Source: Candidatus Omnitrophota bacterium (lineage in GTDB: Bacteria > Omnitrophota > Gorgyraeia > Zapsychrales > Aceulaceae). Taken from it: a DNA stretch of 61,138 nucleotides. The stretch covers positions 1 through 61,138 of the forward strand of contig JAQUUP010000006.1 in the NCBI GenBank assembly GCA_028693815.1. The letters run 5' to 3'. Below the pieces are notes generated by a model. The model worked only from the letters and a program-made list of their open reading frames with translations, had not been told where the DNA came from and did no database searches. Below are positions 4,225 through 61,138 of this stretch, one piece after another. Within the stretch, counting starts at the first letter, position 1. Each line of letters begins with the position of its first letter. A program made the position numbers and the translations under genes.

Positions 4225-4313
4225 TCCCGACTCAACTGCTAGACTGCAGTTTCGCGGGATAAATTCGTCAACAAACTTGCGTTAATGACGCTCCACAAGA
4301 TTGGACTCATTTA
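4225..4313 (+). promoter_or_regulatory. Two-hairpin leader element, copy A (before PEBP gene)
   Basis: First stem TCCCG 4225-4229 with CGGGA 4255-4259, containing an inner ACTGC/GCAGT stem. It abuts TAAAT 4260-4264, TC, GTC 4267-4269, an inner CTTG/CAAG plus GCGT/ACGC stem, then GAC 4304-4306, TC and ATTTA 4309-4313. The last A is the A of the ATG. The same architecture recurs at 16887, 27818, 35629, 57427, 57698 and 60903. Confidence 0.75.
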
Positions 4314-16886: not shown

Positions 16887-16972
16887 TCCCGATCCTCTGC
16901 GGGACGGGATAAATTTTCCCCTGCTGCTTCGTTTTGCAAGCAAAACCGAAGCAAAACGGCAGGGCTCATTTA
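16887..16972 (+). promoter_or_regulatory. Two-hairpin leader element, copy C
   Basis: First stem TCCCG 16887-16891 with CGGGA 16905-16909. It abuts TAAAT 16910-16914, then CCCTGC 16919-16924 pairs with GCAGGG 16959-16964 and GCTTCG with CGAAGC, and the closing TC-ATTTA is 16966-16972. AAGAGGAG follows at once and the ATG is at 16986. Because a perfect promoter lies just upstream, this copy should be transcribed as leader RNA. Confidence 0.8.
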
Positions 16973-27817: not shown

Positions 27818-27898
27818 TAAATGAGCGCATAATTTACGTGACTAAAAGGATCGTAAATTATCTGCGCGAATTTATCCCGCACGTGTAACGTGTCGGGA
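27818..27898 (-). promoter_or_regulatory. Two-hairpin leader element, copy D (before glutaredoxin)
   Basis: Read on the minus strand: TCCCG and CGGGA form the first stem (27898-27875). TAAAT-TC-GCGCA then pairs with TGCGC-TC-ATTTA (27874-27863 with 27829-27818). Inside is a 9-bp stem, TAATTTACG/CGTAAATTA. AAGGAG and the glutaredoxin ATG follow directly. This is the cleanest example of the closing TAAAT-TC/TC-ATTTA stem. Confidence 0.85.
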
Positions 27899-35628: not shown

Positions 35629-35722
35629 TCCGATTTTTCGTTTTGTAAAAAAAATAGGATGAATTCGCCCTTGCTGCTTCGCTTTGTAAGCAAAAGCGAA
35701 AAAAGCGTCAGGGGCTCATTTA
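35629..35722 (+). promoter_or_regulatory. Two-hairpin leader element, copy E
   Basis: First stem TCC 35629-35631 with GGA 35657-35659, extended by ATTTTT/AAAAAT. It abuts TGAAT-TC-GCCC (35660-35670), pairing with GGGC-TC-ATTTA (35712-35722), where G-U replaces A-U. Inside, TTCGCTTT pairs with AAAGCGAA. AAGGAGG follows at once, then GTG 35735. It starts five bases after the mtaB stop. Confidence 0.78.
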
Positions 35723-54217: not shown

Positions 54218-54242
54218 CGAAAAATTAACAAAAGAATATAAA
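54214..54242 (+). promoter_or_regulatory. Possible promoter ahead of the YkgJ-family gene
   Basis: TTGACG at 54214-54219, 17-base spacer, TATAAA at 54237-54242, overlapping the stop codon of the RluA-family gene. The predicted leader would be about 125 bases; an AAAGGAG at 54240-54246 has no start codon nearby. Confidence 0.4.
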
Positions 54243-54372
54243 GGAGTACATCAGTTACAGGGTATAGTGCTTATAAATGATATGTTTGATTTTATTTATT
54301 TGTTGAATTTAAAAGCGAAAATACAAAACAATTAATTAAATACCGATTCCTAGTTTTAAAAAAATTATTAAA

Positions 54373-57426: not shown

Positions 57427-57495
57427 TACAGCAAAGCTGGATAAATTTACTAACAAACTTACGTCATTAGCGTTCCATAAGATTGCACTCGTTTA
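57427..57495 (+). promoter_or_regulatory. Two-hairpin element, copy G (diverged)
   Basis: First stem CAGC-AAA-GCTG (57429-57439), then TAAAT 57442-57446 pairing with GTTTA 57491-57495 (one G-U), inner CTTACG...CGT...TAAG stem. Compared with copy A the inner stem changes G-C to A-U at two positions while keeping the pairs. AAAAAGGA follows, but instead of a gene there is a GAA tract. Confidence 0.7.
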
Positions 57496-57505
57496 AAAAG
57501 GAAAA

Positions 57506-57540
57506 GAAGAAGAAGAAGAAGAAGAAGAAGAAGAAGAAGA
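57506..57540 (+). repeat. GAA trinucleotide microsatellite
   Basis: Almost twelve perfect GAA units, directly after copy G. It lies in a 376-base stretch without genes. On the minus strand it makes a poly-Leu open frame that is not a real gene. Confidence 0.95.
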
Positions 57541-57602
57541 CAGCCCCCAAACAGAAACAGCTCTTTGAAGAAGGGGACAGCCCCAAACAGGGACAGCTCT
57601 TT
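57539..57602 (+). repeat. Two direct copies of a GACAGCCCC...CAGCTCTTT unit
   Basis: Positions 57539-57566 and 57576-57602 are near-identical 27/28-base units. The second starts within GGGG-ACAG-CCCC, a short palindrome of the kind found in REP-like intergenic repeats. No transposase is near. Confidence 0.8.
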
Positions 57603-57697: not shown

Positions 57698-57781
57698 TCC
57701 AGAAAATATTGAAATGTTTTCTGGATAAATTCGGGCTTTAATTTACGTCATAAAAACATCCGTAAATTATGCCCTCATTTA
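57698..57781 (+). promoter_or_regulatory. Two-hairpin leader element, copy F
   Basis: First stem TCCAGAAAA 57698-57706 with TTTTCTGGA 57717-57725. It abuts TAAAT-TC-GGGC (57726-57736), which pairs with GCCC-TC-ATTTA (57771-57781), and a 9-bp TAATTTACG/CGTAAATTA stem lies inside. The ATG of the next gene follows five bases later, without a clear Shine-Dalgarno site. Confidence 0.85.
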
Positions 57782-57785
57782 ATTT

Positions 57786-59219
57786 ATGAAAAAAATACCA
57801 AACATTTTGTCTTTTCTTAGAAATCCTTATTTTTATATCTTTTTTCTCGCCTTTTTTATAATTACCCCAACATTGCGATGGTCTTATTCTTTAGATGATA
57901 TTGATAATTTTTATCTTATTTCTCAGATAAAAGGGATGGGAGATTTTTTTGGATACCTCTTACTTCCCGGAGATGGACATTTTATTCCACTTTTTCGTCT
58001 TTTTTATTTTATTTGCTTTAAAATATCCTGGCTAAATCCTCTGCTTTCACATCTTTTTGTCACGCTCGCTTTTTTCTTGTCTGGTTTAATCTTGATGAAA
58101 ATTATCGAGCAACTAACAGGCTCTAAAACTGCAGGAATTTTTGCAGGAGCTTTTGTTCTTCTCTCCACAGGCTATACGCGTTGTCTGGAAATTGCTTTTT
58201 CACATTTTACACTGAGTTTGCCAATTATTCTTTTTTCTCTCTATAGCTTAATCAACTACCAACAAACAAAAAAACCGTGTTGGCATTTTTCGGTTATGGC
58301 GTGCATATTTATCGCACCATTATTTTCAGCGATGGGAATCTTGACAGGACCATGGGTTATCCTTTTTACGTTTTTATGCCTTGAAAGGAAAAATTGGAAA
58401 AAAATACTCATTAGTCCTTTTATCGTCTGGGTTTTAAGTGTTGTCATTTTCTTAGTAGAAATAAAAGCTGCTTCAACAATTGCAGATCCTCTTGTACGTG
58501 CATCAAATGCCATCCTGCTAACAGGGAAAGCCATTTGGATTTATACTTTACCAAATTTAACTTCTTACAAAGATCTGTCTTGGTTTTTAGTTGTTTTCTT
58601 TTTTTTAATGCTGTTTGTCCAAAGAAAGAAGATTAATTTTAAAATACTTAGCTTTTTTATCTTCTGGATTATTGGTAATTATCTTTTTATTTATTTTGGT
58701 CGAGGAAAATGGGGGATGAGACTCATTTTTTCACCACGGTACGCATTTTATGCTTCTTTAGGAATCGCATCGATCATTTGTCTAGTTATCGGATCCATCG
58801 CTCAAGACAAAGAATGGATTTATTTTTTTAAAAATAAAAAGAAAATATTAATCCCTATTTTTAGTCTTCTTATTATCGTGCACGCTTTTTATCAACACCA
58901 GATTATTTTGCAACAAACAAAAGAAAAGAACAGCCTTTTGGCCATCGGCACTCAAATGGAATCCGCACTAACAAATTATCTGCAAAAAACCAAGGAAAAA
59001 AAAGTTTTCTTAGAAGACAAAGAAACGCGTATACAAATGCTTTTTCCAGTTGATCGACGCATGAGCTACTATGCGTCGTTTTTATTAAGAGATGAATTTA
59101 AAAAAGAAATTGTTTGGAAAAAAGATAAAACTGAACAAAATTTTATCCAGCATGTTAAAATGAATCAATTGCAATATCCTAATTTCTTTGAATTATTAAA
59201 AGATGCGAAATATTTCTAA
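57786..59219 (+). CDS. Multi-pass membrane protein, glycosyltransferase-like
   Basis: A 477-residue protein with about 10 to 11 membrane helices through residue 375 and a small soluble C-terminus. SYSLDDIDNFYLI near 30 places an Asp-Asp pair in the first extracytoplasmic loop, as in GT-C enzymes, and GDGHFIPLFRLFYF follows. The layout resembles the membrane glycosyltransferase at 36334, but sequence similarity is low. Function not established. The leader element F sits directly before it. Confidence 0.7.
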   Translation: MKKIPNILSFLRNPYFYIFFLAFFIITPTLRWSYSLDDIDNFYLISQIKGMGDFFGYLLLPGDGHFIPLFRLFYFICFKISWLNPLLSHLFVTLAFFLSGLILMKIIEQLTGSKTAGIFAGAFVLLSTGYTRCLEIAFSHFTLSLPIILFSLYSLINYQQTKKPCWHFSVMACIFIAPLFSAMGILTGPWVILFTFLCLERKNWKKILISPFIVWVLSVVIFLVEIKAASTIADPLVRASNAILLTGKAIWIYTLPNLTSYKDLSWFLVVFFFLMLFVQRKKINFKILSFFIFWIIGNYLFIYFGRGKWGMRLIFSPRYAFYASLGIASIICLVIGSIAQDKEWIYFFKNKKKILIPIFSLLIIVHAFYQHQIILQQTKEKNSLLAIGTQMESALTNYLQKTKEKKVFLEDKETRIQMLFPVDRRMSYYASFLLRDEFKKEIVWKKDKTEQNFIQHVKMNQLQYPNFFELLKDAKYF

Positions 59220-60902: not shown

Positions 60903-61138
60903 TAAATTCGCACAGCAGCTTGATAGCACTGGCGTTCCATAAAACGGAGGTTCATTTGTCCAGCAAAGCTGGATAAATTCACTAACAAACTTACGTCACT
61001 GGCGTTCCGAAAAAACGGAGGTTCATTTGTCCAGCAAAGCTGGATAAATTCACTAACAAACTTACGTCACTGGCGTTCCGAAAAAACGGAGGTTCATTTG
61101 TCCAGCAAAGCTGGATAAATTCACTAACAAACTTACGT
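60903..61138 (+). repeat. 71-bp tandem array of the two-hairpin element (continues past the window)
   Basis: A diverged unit at 60903-60958 is followed by 60959-61029, 61030-61100 and a partial unit from 61101, with exact 71-base spacing. Each full unit has TCCAGC-AAA-GCTGGA, TAAAT-TC, an inner ACGT...GCGT stem and a TC-ATTTG close, with the G-U pair. CGGAGG precedes the close. No gene is seen after it. The 60823-60902 stretch before it holds only a short GTG frame ([17 protein letters not shown]) that I cannot identify. Confidence 0.93.

Follow-up and report, generated by a model that had tools for sequence, protein, structure and literature searches.

The two-hairpin element at positions 16887-16972 of the window, the whole 61138-nt stretch of DNA that was analysed, is one copy of a dispersed DNA repeat that is mobile or was recently so, and a regulatory leader RNA is not its main identity. 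This reading follows from empty sites in related genomes, from near-identical copies at unrelated sites and from the lack of a G-U excess in the covarying stems. The element probably belongs to the non-autonomous palindromic DNA repeats of the REP/MITE kind. It was assigned to this kind, with no new category proposed, because the GTAG/CGTC tag, a linkage to RAYT genes, inverted ends and an Rfam family were all absent. The original prediction had named both an RNA leader and a REP- or MITE-like repeat. The latter was borne out by 75 dispersed copies in the host genome, clean empty orthologous sites and the minority of sites common to congeners. The former was retained as a secondary role for some copies in Candidatus Aceula, and was set aside as the main identity owing to the dispersal and the missing G-U excess.

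Copies in the window

To identify the copies, the window was searched, with filters off, using a covariance model constructed from 30 copies of the second hairpin from this genome and its relatives. All seven places that had been grouped by eye were recovered as members of one family, with scores of 75.5, 64.0, 54.5, 29.5, 25.4, 21.7 (two units) and 21.4 bits (E 4e-14 to 0.02). The features are listed below.

4225-4313, plus strand: copy A, hairpin 1 and hairpin 2 (TAAATTC...TCATTTA, 4260-4313); fold z -3.3
4257-4313, plus strand: model match of copy A, 54.5 bits
16834-16861, plus strand: sigma-70 promoter TTGACA-16-TATAAT, upstream of copy B
16887-16972, plus strand: copy B, hairpin 1 closed by TCCCG/CGGGA, hairpin 2 from TAAATT (16910) to CATTTA (16972); fold z -3.9
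16907-16972, plus strand: model match of copy B, 21.4 bits, E 0.021
27818-27898, minus strand: copy C, hairpin 2 at 27818-27874 and hairpin 1 at 27875-27898 with a bulged A
27818-27877, minus strand: model match of copy C, 75.5 bits
27871-28109, minus strand: tandem array upstream of copy C, a 52-nt unit (hairpin 1 and an AT-rich spacer) repeated 4.6 times; TRF, 96% matches
35630-35722, plus strand: copy D, between mtaB and a 55-aa ORF/rlpA; GGATGAATT...TCATTTA variant
35657-35722, plus strand: model match of copy D, 29.5 bits, E 4e-4
57427-57495, plus strand: copy E, degenerate; model match at 57439-57495, 25.4 bits, E 0.003
57698-57781, plus strand: copy G, hairpin 1 at 57698-57725 and hairpin 2 at 57726-57781; fold z -5.8
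57723-57781, plus strand: model match of copy G, 64.0 bits
60927-61138, plus strand: copy H, tandem array of three 71-nt units (hairpin 1 plus hairpin 2) that runs off the contig end; TRF

The copies at 27818, 57698, 4225 and 16887 fold well, with z values of -3.3 to -5.8. For copy E, the lower stem no longer pairs and the sequence folds no better than its shuffles (z +0.56). Copy B is one of the lower-scoring members, since it has a longer and divergent form of hairpin 2. For copy H, the assignment to the family stood for the array but not for the exact start at 60903 (12.8 bits, E 1.5), which corresponds to the first, degenerate unit; the units at 60971-61029 and 61042-61100 each passed with 21.7 bits (E 0.017).

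Copy A ends on the A of the ATG that starts a PEBP (YbhB/YbcL-like) gene, an assignment backed by a match to TIGR00481, and a Shine-Dalgarno (SD)-like GGA at 4303-4305 lies in the 3' arm of its hairpin 2, 7 nt before the ATG. The promoter described as perfect ahead of copy B is indeed exact, matching at 12 of 12 positions; downstream of this copy follow the SD AGAGGAG, the ATG of a thioredoxin-like/ResA-like gene and then thiC. Copy C is followed by the SD AAGGAGAG and the ATG of a glutaredoxin gene, and the membrane-protein gene behind copy G starts at 57786.

An extra weak model match was present on the minus strand at 54239-54297 (20.8 bits, E 0.028), possibly a decayed copy. Directly behind copy E, at 57504-57602, an AAG microsatellite of 12 units is followed by a 36-nt repeat, GACAGCCCCAAACAGGGACAGCTCTTT. 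A perfect 211-nt direct repeat (1-211 and 487-697) occupies the start of the window.

Anatomy of the element and the level of its covariation

The element is about 80-115 nt long and consists of two flush hairpins with no spacer between them. From left to right, a lineage-specific left tail is followed by hairpin 1, hairpin 2 and a sharp right end, ATTNA. The left end is not sharply defined and varies by lineage, the tail being GGAAA or TCATTA in Aceula, TTGAACTT in genome G119 and about 22 AT-rich nucleotides in genome G165. The outer five pairs of hairpin 1 vary freely (TCCCG/CGGGA, CTCCG/CGGAG, CCCCG/CGGGG, TTCCG/CGGAA, TATCG/CGATA). The TCC/GGA closure given in the original prediction is present but not invariant, being replaced by CTCC/GGAG, CCCC/GGGG, TTCC/GGAA, CTTCG/CGAAG or TATCG/CGATA, with the partner arm matching each time. 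Hairpin 1 carries a bulge, mostly a single A after five base pairs, on the 5' arm in 30 cases and on the 3' arm in 5. Hairpin 2, of about 57 nt, is composed of a TNAAT foot, a TC/TC internal loop, a 4-bp stem, a bulge on the 5' arm, an upper stem and a loop. The foot pairs with ATTN'A at the right terminus, where N may be A, T, G or C and N' compensates. The TC/TC loop is near-invariant (117 of 138 Aceula copies and 104 of 104 others), the bulge of 1-2 nt lies on the 5' arm in 115 of 123 copies (classes (2,0) and (1,0)), and both the 4-bp stem and the upper stem covary.

Hairpin 1 can be swapped without a change in hairpin 2, as seen in the tandem units of locus L308. Inverted doublets around one common central palindrome were also found (L057 and L062, and pairs in genomes G010 and G012). 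In the common form, the two outer ends do not make up a pair of inverted repeats. In L308 (1550-1870) and L323 (1550-1790), the left flank of the element (about 19-24 nt) is repeated on its right within the tandem units; in L308, the units differ in hairpin 1 and have the same hairpin 2.

The covariation that had been noted proved real. In this genome's 79 distinct copies, pairing was seen in 94.6% of cells compared to 76.6% in shuffles, and both sides were changed in 287 cells compared to 91. In the loci fetched, which are stretches around matches, the motif with its pairing occurred 149 times, and it was absent from the reversed sequence (0 occurrences). When selection acts on an RNA strand, G-U intermediates are expected far above A-C mismatches, as in RNA families. 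The non-canonical pairs of the Aceula copies comprised 80 G.T and 80 A.C, and those on the model alignments 101 G.T and 86 A.C. Since the two classes were about equal, with no G-U excess, the palindrome is best read as kept at the DNA level, either through recognition of a folded DNA strand or through template switching that corrects quasi-palindromes. The unpaired conserved TC/TC loop and the one-sided bulges argue for recognition of the folded strand. An attC/integron site was considered on account of this folded-strand anatomy with bulges and was set aside, as inspection by eye revealed no RYYYAAC/GTTRRRY core boxes. Covariation among dispersed copies can thus come from a DNA palindrome and not from a functional RNA, and the count of G.T against A.C pairs offers a cheap means of discriminating the two.

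Dispersal, mobility and a candidate mobiliser

The host genome, Candidatus Aceula (Omnitrophota; 1.9 Mb), carried 75 copies by the covariance model, and its two congeners 44 and 41. Matches were found in 22 of 31 genomes at the level of the order and in 155 of 237 sampled Omnitrophota genomes. In a pattern scan of 84,980 species genomes, the matches listed were mostly from Omnitrophota and included two named Aceula species; outside the phylum, at least a few structured copies were present, in records of Bacteroidota, Deltaproteobacteria, Patescibacteria and Thermodesulfovibrionia. The family is abundant in a large uncultured phylum and at least sparsely present outside it. The viral contigs searched held practically no copies, and carriage by viruses was rejected on this basis. 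The earlier statement that no named element matches was upheld: Rfam gave no match in the window at the gathering score and nothing credible at E <= 1, and no description of the family was found in Rfam 15 or in the literature searched.

Comparison of orthologous gaps supported mobility. The gap before the glutaredoxin gene contains copy C and the 52-nt array in this genome, is an ATGA overlap in one congener (G002) and differs in the other (G001). The mtaB-rlpA gap, where copy D resides, is empty in both congeners, at 12-16 nt. AAGGAG is present on both flanks of copy D and is possibly a target duplication. Comparison of G165 with its congener G142 revealed a clean insertion of about 105 nt, with 75% identity resuming on both sides and AGGA on each flank, and a second clean insertion at a stop codon; the empty site indicates a target duplication of 0-4 nt in the best case, and the left end is not sharply defined. 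G165 and G119 each contain near-identical copies in unrelated places. Most element sites in Aceula are not shared between the species.

When left and right flanks were compared over the loci, shared sequence was no more frequent than in random pairs, except at L007 and L125. A fixed target duplication was therefore rejected, the two exceptions being tandem duplications of tRNA 5' ends. In these arrays (L125 and L056, which are probably the same array, and L007, 1170-1350), the element sits in duplicated 5' ends of genes for tRNA-Phe and tRNA-Asn; its position in the D-arm, GTAGCT^CAG, is identical in the two, and its orientation is reversed.

The element could in principle be a classical MITE, moved by a DDE transposase and bounded by terminal inverted repeats and a fixed target duplication. 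The clean insertions and the AAGGAG and AGGA flanks fit such an origin, but the outer ends of the common form and the random-like flanks, tRNA cases aside, do not, and we consider it very unlikely. It resembles the bacterial MITEs ERIC, NEMIS, RUP and Bcr1 (named in PMC3733652) in being short and inserted close to genes, and its common form differs from them in lacking both terminal inverted repeats and a target duplication of fixed length; those MITEs are transcribed and can alter mRNA structure, traits that the element would share. Membership of a GTAG- or CGTC-tagged REP family moved by a RAYT must be rated more improbable still. The element does share with REP/BIME/REPIN sequences and their RAYT (TnpA_REP) system (PMC3733652, PMC8266576) small imperfect palindromes in tens of intergenic copies, a conserved stem bulge, tandem and inverted groups and stop codons donated to neighbouring ORFs, as REPs are known to do (PMC3733652). 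Against the usual 20-40-nt, high-copy, intergenic REP palindrome, its hairpin 2 is somewhat longer at about 57 nt, at 41-75 copies per Aceula genome. Genes for Y1 transposases were moreover present in 14 of 15 element-rich genomes and in 24 of 32 genomes of the order. However, GTAG or CGTC occurred in 0 of 164 Aceula copies in the windows searched at the feet and ends, and the common unit is two flush hairpins in direct and not inverted order, with a covarying TNAAT/ATTNA foot helix and a right end fused to SD sequences or start codons. Furthermore, 60 Y1 loci (PF01797; about 185 kb from 47 genomes) contained no copy within 1.5 kb, and linkage of the element to Y1/RAYT genes was rejected on this basis. 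The two Aceula congeners have no Y1 gene at all, and this genome's single Y1 gene (L333, 1645-2319) lies next to no copy. Y1/RAYT transposases (L148-L177, L403-L432) are common in Omnitrophota, without linkage to the element.

The preferred reading, a non-autonomous repeat of the REP/MITE kind, allows a more tentative suggestion: the folded single-stranded DNA might be mobilised in trans by an IS200/IS605-like (HUH, Y1) transposase. Non-autonomous, PATE-like derivatives of IS200/IS605 served as the comparison system. Like IS200/IS605 ends, the element has two subterminal hairpins that are bulged by an unpaired base on the same arm, and it lacks terminal inverted repeats; any target duplication would be short. 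Its right end is sharp, and the final bases there can pair with the bases at the foot of hairpin 2, which may act as a guide. In IS200/IS605 elements, the tetranucleotide that terminates the right end base-pairs with a guide located at the foot of the hairpin on that side (PMC6006769). By analogy, the TNAAT foot would be a guide that pairs with a terminal ATTNA cleavage site, and the 5'-arm bulges would serve as recognition marks; the four-way covariation at N is what a guide of this type would be expected to produce. Such a covarying foot helix makes a directly testable prediction on guide-directed single-strand transposition. The element differs from IS200/IS605 in the unusually variable sequence of hairpin 1, in a left end at which no fixed target tetranucleotide is evident and in that no cognate TnpA or autonomous parent (a TnpA gene between the same ends) was found near the 60 Y1 loci. 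These loci, the congeners that lack Y1, the imprecise left end and the target duplication of at best 0-4 nt all weigh against the preferred reading.

Position at genes and start-codon copies in Aceula

The right end of the element is flush with gene starts or stops. Outside Aceula, its orientation in co-directional gaps was unbiased (27 versus 30). Roughly half of these copies lay at gene ends. Of 40 same-strand genes, 24 started within 25 nt; of 47 facing genes, 29 ended on the element's own stop codon, TAA (20) or TGA (9). Of the 118 co-directional gaps in Aceula, 101 had the element pointing at the start codon downstream and 17 had it pointing away (p 1e-15). A bias towards 5' leaders, which the original prediction had made a test of its proposal, was accordingly found in Aceula and not elsewhere in the phylum. 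Gene calls were mechanical (longest non-overlapping ORFs), so that individual distances can be wrong. The adjacency to genes can be explained by selection against insertions at other positions within the very short gaps, whereas the orientation bias in Aceula cannot. The genome is compact and tolerates mobile repeats that lie flush with genes and can bring a stop codon, a start codon or an SD-like word.

Two modes were distinguished in Aceula. In the first, the gene's own SD lies downstream of the element and the start is 9-16 nt away. In the second, the element's final A doubles as the first base of the ATG, leaving no room for an SD after it. Second-mode copies have GGAG, AGGA or a similar word some 7 nt before the ATG, within the 3' arm of hairpin 2, far more often than other copies do. 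Such a word was present in 8 of 12 second-mode copies of this genome compared to 10 of 67 others (p 5e-4). The words were set after a few examples had been seen; when the two other species were tested in turn, 7 of 17 second-mode copies had one compared to 2 of 68 others (p 1e-4). As the arms still pair in the second-mode copies, the SD-like word is inside the stem. Several start-fused sites of this genome recur in a congener, before what we take, from the sequences, to be dnaJ (all three species), secA, rsmD, a NUDIX gene and a gene for a small conserved protein, and the stems differ between species at the dnaJ, secA and rsmD sites.

We infer that the ATG-fused copies have been exapted to serve as ribosome-binding sites for the genes behind them, and that this role is why they are kept. 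An element that replaced the native initiation region could then no longer be lost. A broader version of this idea, rather unlikely, is that a phylum-wide mobile element became in Aceula a portable translation-initiation module, supplying the A of the start codon and an SD-like word in its stem, such that translation of a set of housekeeping genes (dnaJ, secA, rsmD, nrdR, folE and others) would pass through a transposable hairpin and might be regulated by it.

That the element is chiefly a cis-regulatory leader RNA, akin to a riboswitch or thermometer, controlling downstream translation and spread through a regulon appears unlikely. The sense orientation in Aceula, the SD-like words within the stem of ATTTATG copies, the sites common to species at dnaJ, secA and rsmD despite differing stems, and the exact promoter before copy B speak for it. 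Against it are the equal G.T and A.C counts, the unbiased orientation and the gene-end copies outside Aceula, the unrelated housekeeping genes at its sites, a gene set that is conserved only in a minority, the tested window sites that are empty in relatives, with few sites shared, and the absence of an Rfam match. The lack of a G-U excess, the dispersal and the want of a conserved gene set were the grounds for rejecting a riboswitch-type leader as the main identity. ROSE and fourU thermometers are RNA elements that sequester the SD; the ATTTATG copies resemble them in the SD-like word in a hairpin arm about 7 nt from the AUG, also before dnaJ, and differ in fold, in the unrelated genes and in the lack of a G-U bias. 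The leader reading nevertheless appears right for some copies, given the 101:17 bias and the subset apparently co-opted as translation-initiation regions; the same bias could mean more leader function than the dispersed-repeat reading, with its few exapted copies, allows.

At the other end of genes, the element abuts stop codons at L031, L133 (mnmE), L054, L123, L126 (xerC/D-like), L042 and L088 (groEL-like). In unrelated phyla it was found repeatedly at the stop codon of the same conserved genes, which we presume from their C-terminal residues to be mnmE, xerC/D-like and groEL-like.
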